The position numbers and the translations under genes are program-made. From contig NZ_JSWF01000029.1 in the NCBI RefSeq assembly GCF_000797445.1, forward strand, positions 62,001 to 126,000: DNA of 64,000 bases, written 5' to 3'. This DNA comes from Lacinutrix jangbogonensis. GTDB taxonomy: Bacteria; Bacteroidota; Bacteroidia; Flavobacteriales; Flavobacteriaceae. The notes beneath the pieces are model-generated. The model was not told the DNA's origin. It ran no database searches and was given only the letters and a program-made list of their open reading frames with translations. Numbering within the stretch: the stretch's first letter is position 1; every line of letters begins with the position of its first letter. Below, in pieces: positions 55,771 to 63,926 of the stretch.

Positions 55771-56001
55771 ATGTCTATGTTTTGTAATCTATTTGGCCAT
55801 AAATACGAAGTTTCCAAAAAAATTACGTATCACTTAAAAGAATACAAATGCTGTAATTGTAAAAAACAACTGACTACAAATAGCAATGGAAAGTTAGTTG
55901 AACTTACGCCAAAACACAAAGAAATAAACTCAATTTTATCTAAAATTTATACTAATAAACAAGCAAGACTTCACAAAGGTGGATTAAAAATAACGTCTTA
56001 G
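55771..56001 (+). CDS. small Cys-rich zinc-binding-type protein
   Basis: 76 residues, basic, with CNLFGHKYEVSKK at the start and YKCCNCKKQL in the middle (Cys 5, His 10 and the CxxC cluster). These can form one zinc site. It resembles short phage- or chromosome-borne zinc-ribbon proteins (DUF1660-like). Its last bases overlap the end of the convergent thiL gene. Confidence 0.65.
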   Translation: MSMFCNLFGHKYEVSKKITYHLKEYKCCNCKKQLTTNSNGKLVELTPKHKEINSILSKIYTNKQARLHKGGLKITS

Positions 56002-57044
56002 TTATCGAAATTTTTCCAACCTTGCGCTTGTAATGGTATTTTTGTTTCTCCTCTAGTCACTAAATTAGCTCCAATATTTTTTTCTGTAATATATCCAATA
56101 ACTGTTAAATTAGGGTTGGCTTTTATTTTTGGAAAATCTTCTTGAGAAATCGTCATTAACAACTCATAATCTTCACCTCCATTTAGTACAACTGTGGTAC
56201 TATCCATCTTAAATTCTTCGCAAGTTGAAATAACTTGTGGATCTAAAGGCAGTTTATCTTCATATAAATCGCAACCTACCTCACTAGCTTTACATATATG
56301 TAAAATTTCTGAAGACAAACCATCGCTAATATCAATCATAGCTGTAGGCTTAACCTCTAAATCTTTCAGCAATTTAATTATGTCTTTTCTCGCTTCAGGT
56401 TTTAACTGGCGCTCCATAACGTATGTGTAAGCATCCAAATCTGGTTGATTATTTGGGTTTACTTTAAACACTTCCTTTTCACGCTCTAAAATTTGAAGTC
56501 CCATATAAGCTCCTCCTAAATCACCTGTTACAACTAACAAATCGTTTGGTTTTGCACCATTTCTATAGACTACATCTTCGGTTTTAACTTGTCCTATTGC
56601 GGTTACAGAAATTAATAATCCAGAAGTAGAAGATGTTGTGTCCCCTCCAACAACATCAACATTATATATTTTTGCTGCTAATGCAATACCTTCGTATAAA
56701 GCTTCCAAAGCCTCTAAAGGAAACCGGTTAGATACAGCTATAGATACTGTAACTTGGGTCGCTTCGGCATTCATAGCATAAACATCAGATAAGTTTACGA
56801 CAACAGCTTTATAACCTAAATGTTTTAAAGGCACATAGCTTAAATCGAAATGTACGCCTTCTACCAACATATCTGTAGTGACTACAATTTGCTTCTTTTT
56901 AAAATCTAAAACCGCTGCATCATCTCCAATACTCTTAATGGTAGATTTCTGTTTAATCTCAAACTGCTCTGTTAAGTGTTCTATTAATCCGAATTCTCCC
57001 AATTCGCTTAAAGGTGTACTTGCTTGATTTTTATCTTCTATCAT
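55998..57044 (-). CDS. thiL: thiamine-monophosphate kinase
   Basis: 348 residues. Phosphorylates thiamine phosphate to thiamine diphosphate. Motifs: start LGEFGLIEHL, IGDDAAVLDF near 42, VGGDTTSS near 135, AMIDISDGLSSEI near 236 and GGEDYELL near 288. Length is normal. Single gene, convergent with the small zinc protein. Confidence 0.95.
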   Translation of the reverse strand: MIEDKNQASTPLSELGEFGLIEHLTEQFEIKQKSTIKSIGDDAAVLDFKKKQIVVTTDMLVEGVHFDLSYVPLKHLGYKAVVVNLSDVYAMNAEATQVTVSIAVSNRFPLEALEALYEGIALAAKIYNVDVVGGDTTSSTSGLLISVTAIGQVKTEDVVYRNGAKPNDLLVVTGDLGGAYMGLQILEREKEVFKVNPNNQPDLDAYTYVMERQLKPEARKDIIKLLKDLEVKPTAMIDISDGLSSEILHICKASEVGCDLYEDKLPLDPQVISTCEEFKMDSTTVVLNGGEDYELLMTISQEDFPKIKANPNLTVIGYITEKNIGANLVTRGETKIPLQAQGWKNFDN

Positions 57045-57227
57045 AGTGCAAAAATAAGAAGTTGAATTAATAATCAGGGTAAATTTGTATATAATGTGTT
57101 TTCATAATAAAAAGACACTATAAACGCCCTAAATCAAAAATTGAAATACAAGTATTTTAACACTAAAATCAGCGTTTTACCATTTTATTTCTTAATTTCG
57201 TGCTACTTATTTCAAAAAATTAAATTC

Positions 57228-58766
57228 ATGTTTAAAAACTACATTTTTGTTCTAATTGTTTGTTTTTGTTTTCAAAGCGGATTAAACGCTCAAACACCTT
57301 GCGTTTCTGGCATGGCTGGTGTTTATGAATGTAACGATTACGATTTAATGTCAAGAATCCCAGTCTCTGAATTAGGGATGCCCTTAGCACCTGCTAGGGC
57401 GAACGATATATGGGGATGGACAGATCCTTTAGATGGAAAAGAGTATGCAATTGTTGGCACAAGAAATAGTACGGCCTTTGTAGATGTTTCAAACCCACTA
57501 AACCCAATTCTTTTAGGACGTATTGAATCTGCAAACAGTAATGCTTCTGCTTGGAGAGATATAAAGGTATATAATAATCATGCGTTTATTGTTGCAGATA
57601 TAATTGGAGATCATGGCATGCAAGTATTCGATTTAACACTACTTAGAGATGGCGTTGATGCCGATTTAACGTATGACGGAACTCAAGTCTTAAGATATCA
57701 AGGCGATGGTGGTACGGGAGACTTAGTTATTGGTAGTTGCCATAATATTGTTATTAATGAATCTGAAGGTGTTGCGTATTTAGTAGGATGCAGTTCTGCT
57801 AATGGTGGAGGGCCAATTTTTGTAGATATTACAAATCCTACTAGCCCAACAGTTATAGGAGACTACACGGCTGGAGGTTATTCACACGATGCACAAGTAG
57901 TAACATATACTGGACCAGATACAGACTATTACGATCCTGCAAATGGAATTTCTGGGACACAATTATATATTGGAAGCAATGGTGCTGCTGATCAAGTTGT
58001 GATTTTAAATGTAACAGATAAAAATAACATTACATTAATTAGTTCATTTACATATCCTCAAATAGCTTATGCTCACCAAGGTTGGTTTACAGACGATCAA
58101 CGTTATTTTATATTAGGTGATGAGATTGATGAATTAGATTTTGGAAATAATTCACGTACGTTAGTGTTCGACTTTCTAGATTTAGATTTAAATACTAATA
58201 TGGCTAGCATACCTGCAAACCTGATGAATACCTATTTAGGACCAACTGCTGCTATAGATCACAATGGCTACGTAAAAGGGAACACCTTTTACCTCGCGAA
58301 CTACAGAGCTGGCTTACGTGTTTTAGATGTTTCTATATTAACATCTAGCAACAACACAAATGCAGAAATTGGTTTTTTTGACACCCATCCAGGAAGTAAC
58401 AGTGACGACTTTAATGGTACATGGAGTGTGTATCCTTATTTTGCAAGTGGTAACATTATTATTAGTGATATAGAACGTGGTTTATTTGTTGTTAGAAAAA
58501 GTGGAACGACACTAAGCACGCCAAGCATTGATCTATCAGTAAGCTTTTCTTTATTTCCAAATCCAACAACATCTATTTCAACTTTAAAAAGCGATAACGA
58601 TATTCCAATTGAAACCGTTGAAATATATAGTATTCTTGGACAAGAAGTATTTAAAAAAGATAATATTAATGCTCTAGAATACGTTCTTCCTACAACAGGT
58701 TACTCCGCTGGGATTTACATTATTAAAATTAATAATGTTAAAACAAAAAAACTGGTTATAAAATAA
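57228..58766 (+). CDS. choice-of-anchor B family protein with T9SS sorting domain
   Basis: 512 residues from the ATG at 57228 (MFKNYIFVLIV, a good signal peptide). The frame can be extended 29 codons to 57141, but the leader then becomes internal. The propeller-like core of the choice-of-anchor B family runs from about 25 to 430, with motifs HNIVINESEGVAYLVGCSS and YAHQGWFTDDQRYFILGDE. A C-terminal T9SS type A domain (about 440-512, starting LFPNPTTS and ending KKLVIK) sends it out through the type IX system. First gene of a five-gene operon. Confidence 0.88.
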   Translation: MFKNYIFVLIVCFCFQSGLNAQTPCVSGMAGVYECNDYDLMSRIPVSELGMPLAPARANDIWGWTDPLDGKEYAIVGTRNSTAFVDVSNPLNPILLGRIESANSNASAWRDIKVYNNHAFIVADIIGDHGMQVFDLTLLRDGVDADLTYDGTQVLRYQGDGGTGDLVIGSCHNIVINESEGVAYLVGCSSANGGGPIFVDITNPTSPTVIGDYTAGGYSHDAQVVTYTGPDTDYYDPANGISGTQLYIGSNGAADQVVILNVTDKNNITLISSFTYPQIAYAHQGWFTDDQRYFILGDEIDELDFGNNSRTLVFDFLDLDLNTNMASIPANLMNTYLGPTAAIDHNGYVKGNTFYLANYRAGLRVLDVSILTSSNNTNAEIGFFDTHPGSNSDDFNGTWSVYPYFASGNIIISDIERGLFVVRKSGTTLSTPSIDLSVSFSLFPNPTTSISTLKSDNDIPIETVEIYSILGQEVFKKDNINALEYVLPTTGYSAGIYIIKINNVKTKKLVIK

Positions 58767-58776
58767 AATTGAAAAA

Positions 58777-60261
58777 ATGAAAAAAATGAAAAAAATCACT
58801 TCTGCTGTTTTAATTTTAATAACCATTGGAATTACAATGTATAGCTGTCAAGACGAACCTGTAGATTTTGTTCCTATTGTTGATACAGACGGTGATGGCA
58901 TTTTGGATACAGTAGATAATTGTTTACAAATTGCAAATCCAGACCAAGCCGATTTAAATGGTAATGGCATTGGTGATGCTTGTGAACCAAATGCAGATAG
59001 TGATAATGATGGTATTCCAGATACTGAAGACAATTGTATAAACACGCCTAACCCAGATCAAGCCGATACAGACAATGATGGTATTGGAGATGCTTGTGAA
59101 ACTGGCACTAATCCCATAACTCCATTATCGCCTTGCGAAAATGGTATGGCAGGAATTTACCCTTGTAATGGAATAGACTTATTAGCTGAAATTAATACCG
59201 AAACTCTTGGTGGAGATGCTAGTATTGAAGGTAGCGATATTTGGGGATGGACAGATCCAACCACCAATAATGAATACGCAATAATAGCTTTAACAAATAG
59301 CACAGCATTTATTGATATTACAGACCCTGTAAACCCAGTGTATTTAGGACGATTAAACTCTAGCGCAGGAACAAATTTTTGGAGAGATGTAAAAGTATAT
59401 AATAATCATGCTTTTATAGTTGCAGATGGAGCTGGACCTCATGGTATGCAGGTTTTCGATTTAACAAGACTAAGAAACGTTGTAAATATACCAGAAGTTT
59501 TTACTGTAGATGCAATTTATACAGGTGTGGGAAGCTGTCATAACATTGTAATAAACGAAAGCGAAGGCGTTGCTTATTTAGTTGGCTGTTCTTCAACTAA
59601 TGGTGGAGGACCAATTTTTGTGGATATTTCTAACCCAATGAACCCAACCTTTTTAGGCGATTATACTGCAGCTGGCTACACTCACGATGCACAAGTTGTT
59701 ACATACAATGGTCCAGATTCAGATTATACTGGTAAACAAATATATGTAGGTAGTAATGGTAATACCGATAAAGTTGTAATTCTAGACGTTACAGATAAAA
59801 GCAATGTAATTCAAATTAGCGACTTTACGTATCCTCAAACAGATTACGCACATCAAGGTTGGTTTACAGACGACCATGCTTATTTTATTCTGGGCGATGA
59901 GTTAGACGAGCAAGGTTTTGGCTTTAATACTAAGACTTTAATATTCGATTTTACAGATTTAGATAATCCAACGTTATCATCTACTTACACTGGACCAACT
60001 GAAGCAATAGACCATAACGGTTATGTAAAAGGCAATGAATATTATCTTGCAAATTATAGAGCAGGATTGAGAATATTAGACATTACTAATATCTCTGCAG
60101 CTTCTAATTCAATGACAGAAACTGCTTTTTTCGACACATTCCCATCTAGTAACAGTGCTAATTTTAATGGTGTATGGAGTGTTTACCCGTATTTCGCTAG
60201 TGGCAATATAATTATTAGCGACATCGAAGGCGGCCTATTTATAGTTAGAAAAAGCAATTAA
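58777..60261 (+). CDS. choice-of-anchor B family lipoprotein with thrombospondin type 3 repeats
   Basis: 494 residues. Lipoprotein signal (ending MYSC, Cys 24), then two calcium-binding thrombospondin type 3 repeats (about 36-105, with DTDGDGILDT and DSDNDGIPDT). The same choice-of-anchor B core as the upstream gene follows (HNIVINESEGVAYLVGCSS is identical in both). It lacks the T9SS domain and ends right after the core. So the two paralogues differ in how they reach or hold the surface. 10 bases after the first gene. Confidence 0.88.
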   Translation: MKKMKKITSAVLILITIGITMYSCQDEPVDFVPIVDTDGDGILDTVDNCLQIANPDQADLNGNGIGDACEPNADSDNDGIPDTEDNCINTPNPDQADTDNDGIGDACETGTNPITPLSPCENGMAGIYPCNGIDLLAEINTETLGGDASIEGSDIWGWTDPTTNNEYAIIALTNSTAFIDITDPVNPVYLGRLNSSAGTNFWRDVKVYNNHAFIVADGAGPHGMQVFDLTRLRNVVNIPEVFTVDAIYTGVGSCHNIVINESEGVAYLVGCSSTNGGGPIFVDISNPMNPTFLGDYTAAGYTHDAQVVTYNGPDSDYTGKQIYVGSNGNTDKVVILDVTDKSNVIQISDFTYPQTDYAHQGWFTDDHAYFILGDELDEQGFGFNTKTLIFDFTDLDNPTLSSTYTGPTEAIDHNGYVKGNEYYLANYRAGLRILDITNISAASNSMTETAFFDTFPSSNSANFNGVWSVYPYFASGNIIISDIEGGLFIVRKSN

Positions 60262-60272
60262 TAATTTATTAA

Positions 60273-61616
60273 ATGAACTCTAAAACATCTTTATTACTCT
60301 ATTTTTTCGGTTTAATAACCATACTAAGTTGTAAAAACGATGATGATGGTGTAATAAATAGCAATACAACTTCGACAGGATCAGTTTCCTCTGTTAAAAC
60401 AGTTGGAGGCTCTAAAAACGACAGTGCACAAGAAATTGTTAGCACTAGCGATGGAGGTTACGCTATACTAGGTTTTACACAAAGTATAGATGGAGATATT
60501 ATAGACAAACAAAACGAAAATTTCGATTTCTGGGTATTAAAATTCAATGAAGAAAACGACATACAATGGAATAAAACCTATGGTGGAACAGGAGATGATA
60601 AAGGGCAAGATATTATTCAAACTTCCGATGGTGGATATGCCATTATAGGTTCAAGTTTTAGTAACGATGAAGATGTTTCGGGAAATCATGGTCAAAATGA
60701 TTATTGGTTAGCAAAACTAGATGCTTCAGGTAATATTTCATGGCAAAAATCTTATGGCTACCAAGGAGCAGATTATGGTATTTCTGTCATTCAAACTAAC
60801 GATTCTGGATACCTTATAACTGGTGTTTTAGACGTTACAGCTTCAGGAGGCGCAGGTAACACCTCTAAACAAAGAAGTAATCATGCAGGTGGAGATTATT
60901 GGGCTCTAAAACTAGATGCATCTGGCACTATAGAATGGAGTAAATATTATGGTGGATTATTTACAGATTCTCCAGAAAGTATTGTGCAAACAGAAGATAA
61001 TGGATTCATAATTGTTGGAGGATCCGATAGTATGGACACTGATATTTCTAACAATATTGGATCTTACGACTTTTGGGTACTTAAAATTTCGGCAACAGGT
61101 GCAATAGTATGGGAGAAATCTTATGGTGGAGAAGAGATTGATGAAGCTTGGTCGATTGTAAAATCTGGCGATGGTAATTATATAATTGCTGGAGACACTA
61201 GAAGTAACACTGTAAACGTCTCTAATAATATTGGCGCTGCAGATGTATGGTTAATTAAAATTTCGCCTACAGGCGAATTACTTTGGGAAAAAACCATTGG
61301 AGGAACTGGTTTTGATGTTGCTAGAGACATTTCAGCAACTCAAGATGGTGGGTTTTTACTAGCAGGAAGCTCACGAAGTAACGATGTAGATGTTTCAGAA
61401 AATAAAGGACAAAACGATGCTTGGGCTGTAAAGGTTGACAGCAACGGAAACATAGAATGGGAAACCAGTATTGGCGGAACAAACATAGATTTCGCTTATG
61501 GAATTACAGAATTAAATAATAAAAAAGTAGTTGTAATTGGCGACACAACAAGTGACGACGAGGATATTATTGAAAACAAAGGGTTTACAGATTTACTCAT
61601 AGTCCATATCGACTAA
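60273..61616 (+). CDS. beta-propeller lipoprotein with repeated DGGY motifs
   Basis: 447 residues: lipoprotein signal (ITILSC, Cys 20) and about seven repeats of roughly 50 residues over 45-440. Typical forms are STSDGGYAILGFTQS, WNKTYGGTGDDKG and EKSYGGEEIDEA. This suits a seven-bladed propeller such as found in many Bacteroidota surface lipoproteins. No enzyme motif. Third gene of the operon with the MbnP/MbnH pair; a scaffold or binding role is inferred. Confidence 0.8.
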   Translation: MNSKTSLLLYFFGLITILSCKNDDDGVINSNTTSTGSVSSVKTVGGSKNDSAQEIVSTSDGGYAILGFTQSIDGDIIDKQNENFDFWVLKFNEENDIQWNKTYGGTGDDKGQDIIQTSDGGYAIIGSSFSNDEDVSGNHGQNDYWLAKLDASGNISWQKSYGYQGADYGISVIQTNDSGYLITGVLDVTASGGAGNTSKQRSNHAGGDYWALKLDASGTIEWSKYYGGLFTDSPESIVQTEDNGFIIVGGSDSMDTDISNNIGSYDFWVLKISATGAIVWEKSYGGEEIDEAWSIVKSGDGNYIIAGDTRSNTVNVSNNIGAADVWLIKISPTGELLWEKTIGGTGFDVARDISATQDGGFLLAGSSRSNDVDVSENKGQNDAWAVKVDSNGNIEWETSIGGTNIDFAYGITELNNKKVVVIGDTTSDDEDIIENKGFTDLLIVHID

Positions 61617-61628
61617 AAACAGAATACA

Positions 61629-62393
61629 ATGAAAAGAATTTTTGCCTTATTATTATGTGCAACTGTAGCGTTTACTTCATGTGGAGAAGATAACGATGAC
61701 AATATAAAAGCAAATGCAAACGTTAATTTTAAATTTTCACATACTTGGGATAATACCACAATAAACAGTAACAACTTAACAACCGAAACGGTAACGAATG
61801 CTAATGGTGAAGTTATAAATATGACACGCATTAGATACCTGATTTCAAAATTACAATTAGTAAATAGTGCTGGAATTATTTACAGTTTTGACGGTTACAA
61901 GTTTACAGATTTAGAAGATATTAACACCTACGATTTTACACCAGAAAACAATGCCATTCCAGCAGGAACTTATACACTTAAATTTGTTTGGGGATTTAAC
62001 GAAGAAGACAATATTGATGGCAATTATACAGATTTAAACAGTGCCTCATGGAATTGGCCAAGCATGCTAGGTGGTGGTTATCATTTTCTTCAATTTGATG
62101 GTATGTACAATGTAGATACAACGCCAAGCCCTTTTAACTTTCACAATGGAACAGCTCGTGTAAGCATGGGTGTTTTTGAACAAAATTTTGCAACTATTGA
62201 ATTAGAAACACCACTAATTATAAATAATAACGCAACAATTAATATATCTATGGATATTTCAGAATTATTTAAAAACCCTAATACTTGGGATTTAAATGTT
62301 CTTGACACTCCACTAATGCCCAATTACGATGCACAAAAATTGATGCAGCAAAATGTTATGAGTTTATTTAGTATTGAAGGTATTACACAATAA
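61629..62393 (+). CDS. MbnP-family copper-binding lipoprotein
   Basis: 254 residues. Lipoprotein signal (AFTSC, Cys 18) followed by the MbnP-type fold: NVNFKFSHTWDN, INMTRIRYLISKLQLVN, then NWPSMLGGGYHFLQFDG with the Trp-rich stretch ASWNW before it. In studied MbnP proteins a Trp is turned into kynurenine by the MbnH partner and helps bind copper(I). The next gene encodes such a partner 6 bases away. Which Trp is used here is unknown, but the ASWNW region is the likely one. Confidence 0.83.
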   Translation: MKRIFALLLCATVAFTSCGEDNDDNIKANANVNFKFSHTWDNTTINSNNLTTETVTNANGEVINMTRIRYLISKLQLVNSAGIIYSFDGYKFTDLEDINTYDFTPENNAIPAGTYTLKFVWGFNEEDNIDGNYTDLNSASWNWPSMLGGGYHFLQFDGMYNVDTTPSPFNFHNGTARVSMGVFEQNFATIELETPLIINNNATINISMDISELFKNPNTWDLNVLDTPLMPNYDAQKLMQQNVMSLFSIEGITQ

Positions 62394-62399
62394 AAAATA

Positions 62400-63467
62400 A
62401 TGACAAAAGGGTCCATATATCTATTACTAATTATTACGTTTCTAGCATGCTCAAAAAATGACACTCCAGAAACGGAAACTTATGAACCCACTCCTCTACC
62501 TTTAAGTATTCCTCAACTATTTTCAGATAAAATAATTCCGCCTGTAATACCAAACAACAATCCGCAAACGGTTGAAGGTGTTGCTTTAGGTAAAAAACTG
62601 TTTTTCGATACTAAACTTTCTGGAGACCAAACAATGGCTTGCGCATCTTGCCATTCTCCACAACATGCATTCACAGCCAATACTCCAACAAGCGTTGGTA
62701 TAGATGGTGTTTCTGGTAATAGAAATTCTATGCCTTTATTCAATTTAGCATGGAATTATGGAGAACGTTTTACTTGGGACGGTAAAGAACTAAGTTTAGA
62801 ACGTCAGGCTATGGAACCGGTTCAAAATCCAATAGAAATGCATAGCGATTGGCAAGATGTAGTCGATAGGTTACAGTCTGATGCTGAGTATCCAGAACTG
62901 TTTCGTTTAGCGTTTAAAACTTCCACAATTACAAAAGAATTAACAACAAAAGCAATTGCTCAATTTGAACGCACACTAATTTCGGCAAACTCAAAATTTG
63001 ATAAATTTTCGTTAGGCGAAACATCCCTTACTCCGCAGGAACAAAATGGTTTAAATGTGTTTATGGACGAAGAAAGAGGCGATTGTTTTCATTGTCATGG
63101 CAACCCAAATAATCCATTGTGGACAGATAATATTTTTCATAACAATGGTTTAGATACCACATTTTCAGACCTAGGCTTGGGAGGCGTAACTGGAGATCCA
63201 AACGATAATGGCAAATTTAAAACGCCGTCACTAAGAAACTTAGCTTATACTGCCCCATACATGCATGATGGCAGATTTAGTTCTTTAGACGAGGTTATAG
63301 CGTTTTATAGTGCGGGACTTCAACCATCTCCAACAATAGACCCACTAATGAAAAACTTAGATAATGGCGGTGTACAAATATCTGACGCCGATAAAGCAGA
63401 CTTAAAAACCTTCTTACTATCACTATCAGATCCAACATTTCTTACCAATCCAAACTTTCAAGAATAA
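62400..63467 (+). CDS. MbnH-like di-haem enzyme (MauG/cytochrome c peroxidase family), lipoprotein
   Basis: 355 residues. Lipoprotein signal (Cys 17), two haem c sites C81-x-x-C84-H85 (CASCH) and C229-x-x-C232-H233 (CFHCH), and the family motif FDTKLSGDQTMACASC. The later part (FKTPSLRNLAYTAPYMHDG) is usual for the MauG/CcpA group. Together with the preceding MbnP gene it is best read as MbnH, which oxidises Trp in MbnP. A simple cytochrome c peroxidase is the alternative. Last gene of the operon. Confidence 0.86.
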   Translation: MTKGSIYLLLIITFLACSKNDTPETETYEPTPLPLSIPQLFSDKIIPPVIPNNNPQTVEGVALGKKLFFDTKLSGDQTMACASCHSPQHAFTANTPTSVGIDGVSGNRNSMPLFNLAWNYGERFTWDGKELSLERQAMEPVQNPIEMHSDWQDVVDRLQSDAEYPELFRLAFKTSTITKELTTKAIAQFERTLISANSKFDKFSLGETSLTPQEQNGLNVFMDEERGDCFHCHGNPNNPLWTDNIFHNNGLDTTFSDLGLGGVTGDPNDNGKFKTPSLRNLAYTAPYMHDGRFSSLDEVIAFYSAGLQPSPTIDPLMKNLDNGGVQISDADKADLKTFLLSLSDPTFLTNPNFQE

Positions 63468-63596
63468 TTTTACCCAAAGACAACTTACATCAATAAACTC
63501 TATTAAACCATATGCTAATATAATGTTAGGGTATAAGGTAAGAAGAGACTTATATTGTATATTTGCTTACTATTTAGATAAATTCTACATAAGGAC

Positions 63597-63926
63597 ATGA
63601 TAAAAGTTTCTAATATCGCTAAAAAGAAAGTCGTTGAACTAATGACAGACGACGGTTATAATCCAATTGAAGACTACGTTCGTGTTGGTGTTAAAAGTGG
63701 AGGTTGCTCCGGTTTATCCTACGATTTAAAGTTTGACAAAAACCACGAAGAGGAAGATAAAATTTTTGAAGATAATGGTGTGAAAATCATAATTGATAAA
63801 AAAAGCTTCTTATATTTAATTGGCACAACTTTAGAATATTCTGGAGGATTAAACGGAACAGGTTTCGTTTTTAATAATCCGAATGCAAACCGAACTTGCG
63901 GTTGCGGAGAATCATTTTCATTATAA
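63597..63926 (+). CDS. sufA: A-type iron-sulfur carrier (SufA/IscA/HesB)
   Basis: 109 residues. Conserved cysteines in KSGGCSGLSY (near 38) and the C-terminal CGCGES pair bind iron-sulfur clusters for delivery to target proteins. 19 bases before sufB, so it opens the suf operon. Confidence 0.92.
   Translation: MIKVSNIAKKKVVELMTDDGYNPIEDYVRVGVKSGGCSGLSYDLKFDKNHEEEDKIFEDNGVKIIIDKKSFLYLIGTTLEYSGGLNGTGFVFNNPNANRTCGCGESFSL

Follow-up and report, generated by a model that had tools for sequence, protein, structure and literature searches.

A tightly packed gene row of marine Flavobacteriaceae associates choice-of-anchor B propellers, which are probable metalloproteins, with an MbnP/MbnH pair

A stretch of 64,000 nucleotides from Lacinutrix jangbogonensis (contig NZ_JSWF01000029.1, positions 62,001 to 126,000; hereafter the window) carries at positions 57228-63467 an operon of five intact open reading frames, all on the same strand and all starting with ATG, which encodes two choice-of-anchor B proteins, a second kind of propeller lipoprotein and an MbnP/MbnH pair. 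Tentatively, this operon may best be explained as a cell-surface metal-handling cassette of marine Flavobacteriaceae, in which the MbnP/MbnH copper pair would be accessory to propellers with metal sites. The analysis of sequences and models has revealed a tight row of one to five choice-of-anchor B genes, the second propeller lipoprotein, MbnP and MbnH, located between thiL and suf. The operon holds up, as do the identification of the pair and the linkage at the family level; more surprising are the probable metal centre of the propellers and the finding that different MbnP/MbnH pairs are associated with these propellers.

A first-pass annotation made from the letters alone had described five tightly packed genes, with a T9SS-exported protein and lipoproteins among their products, and the packing, a T9SS tail and lipobox-type N termini were borne out. 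The gaps inside the operon are, in gene order, 10, 11, 12 and 6 bases. Gene 1 (57228-58766, plus strand) encodes a choice-of-anchor B protein of 512 amino acids with a signal-peptide-like start and a type IX secretion system (T9SS) type A sorting tail, and gene 2 (58777-60261, plus strand) encodes another one of 494 amino acids with a lipobox-type Cys24, thrombospondin-3 repeats and a seven-bladed propeller. Both proteins passed the cut-off of 100 bits of the TIGR04312 model (choice_anch_B), with 452 and 537 bits, respectively. The product of gene 3 (60273-61616, plus strand, 447 amino acids) is a propeller lipoprotein with Cys20 followed by KNDDD and with SBBP-like repeats, which showed a weak likeness to the SBBP propeller lipoprotein (49 bits versus a cut-off of 400). 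Gene 4 (61629-62393, plus strand) codes for an MbnP-family lipoprotein of type A (254 amino acids; H38, W40, W141, W143, H152, H172 and W220), and gene 5 (62400-63467, plus strand) for an MbnH-family di-haem enzyme of 355 amino acids with a lipobox-type Cys17, the haem motifs C81-C84-H85 and C229-C232-H233, W126 and Y303. Judged by eye, each protein except the first carries a lipobox-type Cys close to its N terminus, and acidic residues follow this Cys in protein 3 and MbnP; in Bacteroidota, an acidic stretch after the lipoprotein Cys is a mark of surface export.

Related loci were compared in the best 80 of 582 obtained with a choice-of-anchor B profile, hence a close sample, whose titles refer to genera of the Flavobacteriaceae, or to unclassified Flavobacteriaceae or Bacteroidetes. 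MbnP and MbnH were found downstream on the same strand in 57 of the 80 loci, with the second propeller not recognised in two of these (L166 and L169); one further locus ended in MbnP at a contig edge, three ended after the propeller and five had no adjoining second propeller. The number of choice-of-anchor B copies per fetched stretch ranged from one to five. When 60 genomes of relatives were searched, 23 of them from other families of the order, choice_anch_B matches above 450 bits were present in 20 genomes, with MbnP within about 3 kb in 17 of them, the unlinked ones being G006, whose contigs are broken there, G030 and G032. Gaps of 50 bases or less separated choice-of-anchor B from the second propeller in 44/45 type A loci, this propeller from MbnP in 41/45 and MbnP from MbnH in 38/46, the medians being 10, 4 and 6 bases, respectively, and 129 bases between MbnH and sufA. 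The arrangement is conserved beyond chance within the Flavobacteriaceae. In one relative (G008, L099) the locus contains several split genes, owing either to decay or to sequencing errors.

In protein 2, residues D204, H255, H303, H359, E375, H413 and W467 are invariant or nearly so, and His 172, 220, 283 and 345 of protein 1 occupy the four conserved blade positions. All 47 sequences of a choice-of-anchor B set with identities down to 25% among the 38 measured contain H255, H303, H359, H413, D304, N256, N414, W362 and E375; among 120 closer sequences, each of the four His was kept in 118 and E375 in 119. The propeller model, with a predicted local distance difference test score (pLDDT) of 93.9, displays the strands of seven blades, as counted by eye. 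In this model D204, the four His and W467 are placed at the start of the first strand, or one residue from it, in six successive blades, and W156 is inside the first strand of the seventh. Because of the four near-invariant His and the Glu on a propeller, together with a remote phosphotriesterase kinship, choice-of-anchor B is probably a metalloprotein, distantly related to a binuclear-metal phosphotriesterase.

This kinship was found by both fold and profile. The top Foldseek match of the propeller was the Sphingobium phosphotriesterase 5hrm (E 7.7e-13, template modelling score (TM-score) 0.66 by query), with 14% identity in the structural alignment. A domain-only choice-of-anchor B profile retrieved 5hrm at E 1.2e-4 and 5ioj at E 2.6e-4. 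A profile-profile comparison with phosphotriesterase homologues, namely the plasmid homologue L248 from Sphingobium xenophagum and a Novosphingobium relative, gave a 96.1% probability and, for one target, E 2.9e-9 over 299 columns, while the controls in the same comparison, the second propeller of the operon and a reversed sequence, reached 1.0% and 0.1%, respectively. In the resulting alignment H255 falls on H258, H413 near or on H475, H303 near H317 and H359/E375 near H389/E407. We take the metal ligands of the Sphingobium enzyme to be E201, H258, H389, E407 and H475, and residues 201, 258, 389, 407 and 475 do read E, H, H, E and H; the enzyme reportedly combines a seven-bladed propeller with a binuclear metal centre, as worded in a title of Mabanglo et al. 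2016, cited in PMC11656708. No counterpart of E201 was found, and repeat-shifted alternatives exist, register shifts being common in alignments of repeat folds. What is claimed from sequence and model is therefore a common kind of metal centre, with the individual ligand residues as candidates only. Two other ideas were discarded. A copper propeller of the NosZ or SBP56 kind, suggested by the pattern of one His per blade, did not appear among the best 50 of 1,608 Foldseek matches. Cys254 as a marker of MbnP presence proved a loose link, with Cys in 25/92 sequences from loci with MbnP versus 0/20 from loci that have the second propeller but lack MbnP.

The product of gene 4 scored 90.2 bits with Pfam PF20243 (MbnP), above the cut-off of 27, and 15.5 bits with the NCBI equivalog TIGR04052 (MbnP_like_WxW), below the cut-off of 140. 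Its model (pLDDT 91.8) gave six Foldseek matches with E≤0.001, every one a chain of the Methylosinus MbnP 7l6g, at modest TM-scores (0.50-0.54 by query length), and its sequence profile matched 7l6g at E 2.1. A fold of the CorA or MopE kind was rejected, as neither protein was among the best 50 of 527 Foldseek matches (E≤10). For gene 5, the best Pfam match was CCP_MauG, the best NCBIfam match was TIGR04039 with 266.1 bits, below a cut-off of 362.85 that was reached in 0/60 relatives, and the best sequence match in the PDB was 6e1c (E 9.5e-53). The features expected of an MbnH/MauG enzyme were found in its product: two CxxCH haem sites, the inter-haem W126, and Y303 at the place of the peroxidase Met, aligned with a Tyr of 6e1c and with Met275 of the peroxidase 1eb7; the roles of the inter-haem Trp and of Tyr in place of Met come from the MauG and peroxidase literature. 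The haem Cys and His, W126 and E146 were kept in 53/53 MbnH rows and Y303 in 46/53, the exceptions being Lys in six rows and a gap in one. Lys303 was dismissed as an MbnH variant because at least two of these six rows, the two individually inspected, belong to a separate minus-strand peroxidase-like gene located upstream in Aquimarina. Such a di-haem peroxidase-like gene is found near the cassette, upstream of brnQ, in six Aquimarina loci (L181, L192, L196, L199, L200 and L217), and the two sequences inspected have about 450 amino acids and differ from MbnH at the place of Tyr303.

The assignment of genes 4 and 5 to MbnP and MbnH in the first-pass annotation is thus confirmed by the PF20243 score, the 7l6g fold match and the closest match to 6e1c with its Tyr kept, and by this kinship a copper function of the pair is likely. 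The annotation had also stated that methanobactin genes are absent, which holds for MbnB, with 0 matches to PF05114 in the genome, MbnA and MbnC not having been searched for.

Two MbnP/MbnH types occupy the same slot. Type A accounts for 48/58 MbnPs of these loci, including that of the window, and type B for 10/58; all ten type B MbnPs have the classical MxWxW motif and their hosts are Aquimarina, Kordia, Mesonia, Dokdonia and one unnamed organism. The types were sorted by Trp220 before trees were calculated by short searches, and the MbnH tree took in 7/10 B loci and 39/48 A sequences. Each type formed one group, with values in the Shimodaira-Hasegawa-like approximate likelihood ratio test (SH-aLRT) of 98 and 99 for MbnP and 100 and 97 for MbnH. 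Types A and B are not adjacent in the trees, since two changes are required for the pairs located elsewhere. On the MbnH tree, type B lies among pairs located elsewhere in genomes of the family (its exact sister with weak support, 41) and type A is next to pairs from other families (87), with branches of 95-97 separating A from B. The states A, B and none required six changes on the thiL tree (61 loci) and three on the propeller tree (65 loci), and therefore the cassette appears to move partly as a unit, with the pair exchanged or lost in place, a pattern that can be read as functional coupling.

The Trp residues of MbnP differ between the types. The window MbnP carries the WxW motif as W141-N-W143, in a register that is uncertain with respect to the Methylosinus trichosporium motif because of an insertion. 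H172 and Y151 were found in 48/48 type A MbnPs and in 58/58 of all locus MbnPs, and W220 in 48/48 of type A, which was sorted by this residue and yet is one clade; W40 was kept in 45/48 and H38 in 41/48. As W220 and W40 are fully or nearly kept and WxW is not, either would be a better candidate than WxW for a kynurenine made by MbnH, if any is made here.

Two other observations concern these pairs. In Aquimarina acroporae (L217) thiL groups with Aquimarina but the propeller belongs to the one clade that lacks MbnP/MbnH, which looks like an in-place replacement of the cassette by transfer. A second MbnP/MbnH pair of the family, of the classical kind, is present at L111:6445-9746 and in the similar loci L112-L120; in L111 it is flanked by a small CNGKCH protein and a barrel-like CDLCGC protein, likely a separate copper operon. 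This second pair is absent from the genome of the window, which gave one PF20243 match only.

In the explanation tentatively preferred here, MbnH, as a MauG-type di-haem enzyme, would oxidise a Trp of MbnP with the help of peroxide, and the resulting kynurenine would complete a copper(I) site. MbnP would then catch copper at the outer surface and hand it to, or store it beside, a choice-of-anchor B propeller, whose central channel may carry a His/Glu/Asp metal site. As the propellers can function in the absence of the pair, MbnP/MbnH would have an accessory role, providing or exchanging the propeller metal in some situation, for instance when copper is scarce. A bolder version, which we consider rather unlikely, takes choice-of-anchor B as an unrecognised class of surface metalloproteins (His4/Glu/Asp) and MbnP/MbnH as a kynurenine metallochaperone that loads them and was recruited more than once, with W220 or W40 as the oxidised Trp in the window type, and not the WxW motif.

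The operon is flanked by thiL on the left (55998-57044, minus strand) and by a sufA/IscA-type iron-sulfur gene on the right (63597-63926, plus strand). The divergent region between thiL and the operon (57045-57227) contains the promoter-like elements TAAATTTG at 57080 (plus strand) and TATTTTTG at 57056 (minus strand), the Bacteroidota -7 consensus being TAnnTTTG; no conserved palindrome was present upstream of the operon in more than 4 of 64 regions. The gap of 129 bases between MbnH and sufA (63468-63596, plus strand) has its own promoter-like TATATTTG at 63558. Among 48 such gaps, the promoter-like TATATTTGCA recurs in 23 and the element ATAATGTTAG upstream of sufA in 18, the two together being a candidate suf control site. 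Wherever the flanks are on the contig, the linked loci sit, with few gaps, between thiL and suf. In 14 of 19 family members, as judged by distance, thiL and sufA diverge, with 142 to 967 bases between them (1,489 in one), and these 14 consist of 12 plus two with weak or no choice_anch_B elsewhere; of the other five, two (G030 and G032) hold propellers without the pair and in three the two flanking genes were not located together. As thiL and sufA are close in these 14, the same neighbours enclose the block in some genomes and not in others, by gain or by loss. A single operon of suf and the cassette was rejected in view of the gap of about 130 bases, the recurrent promoter-like element of its own and the closeness of thiL and sufA without the cassette, and the suf operon is probably a separate unit.

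Outside the family, an even draw of 158 Bacteroidota genomes was searched for choice_anch_B at E≤1e-20 and for MbnP at E≤1e-6. They were present in 52 and 40 genomes, respectively, and together in 15; in 3/15 both were within 3 kb and all three were Flavobacteriaceae. Three Flavobacteriaceae of the draw had choice_anch_B without MbnP. Linkage in other Bacteroidota families was discarded, as none within 3 kb was found in the 60 relatives and the 158-genome draw. In other families of the order, the MbnP/MbnH pair adjoins T9SS-tailed proteases, M43-like by eye, in four loci (L125, L126, L128 and L144), and choice-of-anchor B adjoins topoisomerase-like genes, also by eye, in 7/15 fetched loci. The plasmid collection contained one close choice-of-anchor B match (34.6% identity, L250) in Pseudoalteromonas xiamenensis NZ_CP099918, a single case, divergent beside an annotated MbnP-MbnH pair. 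Its product agrees at 12/13 checked conserved positions, with H255 aligned to a Leu and an AHN motif nearby, and a search with it gave one further weak match in another record (27.6% over 27%). A strong amplification of the choice-of-anchor B family was observed in two surveyed genomes (G143 and G197), one with 11 matches and the other with four in tandem.

Several results weigh against a metal-handling cassette of this kind. Both propellers are kept and run straight to sufA, without MbnP/MbnH, in 14/80 loci, and G030 and G032 have propellers and no MbnP match at E≤0.001 in the genome; what stays constant at the locus is the propellers and not MbnP. The first-pass annotation had presented a Bacteroidota system, and the linkage of its families does stand within the Flavobacteriaceae (57/80 loci, 17/20 genomes); in other Bacteroidota it was not seen, none of the other 12 genomes of the draw with both families (0/12) having them within 3 kb. 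In type A MbnPs both Trp of WxW are kept in 10/48 and neither in 15/48, so that the motif is incomplete in 38/48. As for the propeller, WD40 proteins come next after 5hrm in Foldseek, from E 1.4e-10 and with similar TM-scores, a single-sequence search of the PDB with choice-of-anchor B gave no match, and a profile including the sorting tails reached 5hrm at E 0.044 only. The domain-profile search aligned H303 with H258 and H255 with H204 or H389 instead. The metal of the Sphingobium enzyme is not known to be copper, and the hand-over between the cassette proteins is purely putative.

Among the rival explanations, one that matches the view of the first-pass annotation, with no metal site in the propellers, is possible but doubtful: MbnP/MbnH would acquire or store copper by themselves, and the propellers would be mere surface scaffolds or adhesins under a shared promoter. 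It agrees with the identity of the pair, with the lipobox-type signals and with kynurenine-based copper binding of the MbnP type, which is in print by title: copper binding by such proteins reportedly depends on kynurenine (a title of Manesis et al. 2021, PNAS). However, a scaffold would not call for a conserved His/Glu centre and a phosphotriesterase kinship, it is the propellers, not MbnP, that stay constant at the locus, and the prediction of choice-of-anchor B as a metalloprotein looks in itself like a point against so simple a copper reading. The choice-of-anchor B proteins could instead be surface metallohydrolases that scavenge phosphoesters or related esters and that MbnP/MbnH would mature or protect, either by MbnP giving the metal or by MbnH oxidising a propeller residue. 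This was judged unlikely: a seven-bladed phosphotriesterase with a binuclear metal centre is the nearest relative of known structure in both fold and profile, and separate MbnP/MbnH clades in the same slot also fit, but a likeness in fold does not give activity, the His register is uncertain and the propellers survive without the pair. In addition, there is no sign of a special propeller Trp target, because the conserved Trp are the same with and without the pair.

A plain synteny by vertical descent, without shared function, is improbable. The constant position between thiL and suf in linked loci whose contigs include the flanks and the lack of linkage elsewhere in the Bacteroidota sample would be expected from it, but not the gaps of 50 bases or less in most loci, the occurrence of the same neighbours both with and without the block, the different pair types in the same slot or the adjacency in Pseudoalteromonas. 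Still less probable is an oxidative-stress device, in which MbnH would be a peroxidase, MbnP and the propellers sacrificial surface proteins and the suf neighbour no accident. MbnH does belong to the CCP/MauG family and suf is next door, but Tyr replaces the peroxidase Met, and suf has its own recurrent promoter-like element and adjoins thiL also when the cassette is missing.

In the literature searched, with most subscription journals outside its coverage, neither the phrase 'choice-of-anchor B' nor a paper on the present operon was found. The accessible text of PMC3621798, in a section on 'mysterious partners', describes the MbnP/MbnH pair as conserved far beyond methanobactin producers, at that time without copper data. 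In the corresponding excerpts, the pair is listed among genes of unknown role (PMC9601215), its expression is shown and nothing further (PMC8788703), and MbnPH-like genes occur in putative operons headed by copper-regulator homologues (PMC9426467, which cites Manesis et al. 2021). The role of the pair outside methanobactin producers is left open in the accessible part of PMC3621798, and the present loci provide it with constant, testable surface partners in common marine bacteria. If true, the metalloprotein prediction would be the first function for choice-of-anchor B, a family so far characterised by how it is anchored. The slot is shared by two MbnP types, of which one mostly lacks the two WxW Trp, and this offers a sharp test of which Trp MbnH needs.

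Among known systems, MbnP/MbnH of Methylosinus trichosporium OB3b (7L6G and 6E1C) share with the window the gene pair, the MbnP fold and the Tyr place of the di-haem enzyme. The window differs from them in having no MbnB match, TIGR04052 and TIGR04039 scores below the cut-offs, a WxW motif incomplete in 38/48 window-type relatives, and a row with two kinds of surface propellers. The methanotroph CorA/CorB and MopE/SACCP systems also place a surface copper-binding protein beside a di-haem peroxidase-like gene, according to the accessible text of PMC3912023, in which the copper site of CorA consists of His64, His114, a water and Kyn62 at 2.9 Å; unlike 7l6g, CorA and MopE were not among the best 50 of the 527 Foldseek matches of the window MbnP. 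The second pair of the family, as in L111 (small CxxxCH protein, MbnP, MbnH and barrel-like protein), is likewise an MbnP/MbnH pair in Flavobacteriaceae, with other neighbours and in another clade. The haloalkylphosphorus hydrolase/phosphotriesterase of Sphingobium sp. TCM1 (5HRM and 5IOJ) resembles choice-of-anchor B in its seven-bladed propeller, the His on several blades and the profile kinship over 299 columns, and is set apart by the 14% structural identity, a His pairing that depends on the method and the lack of an identified counterpart of Glu201. Finally, the Pseudoalteromonas locus differs from the window in its divergent orientation, an MbnP with an FWTW motif and no second propeller annotated nearby, and resembles it in that a choice-of-anchor B gene adjoins an MbnP-MbnH pair.

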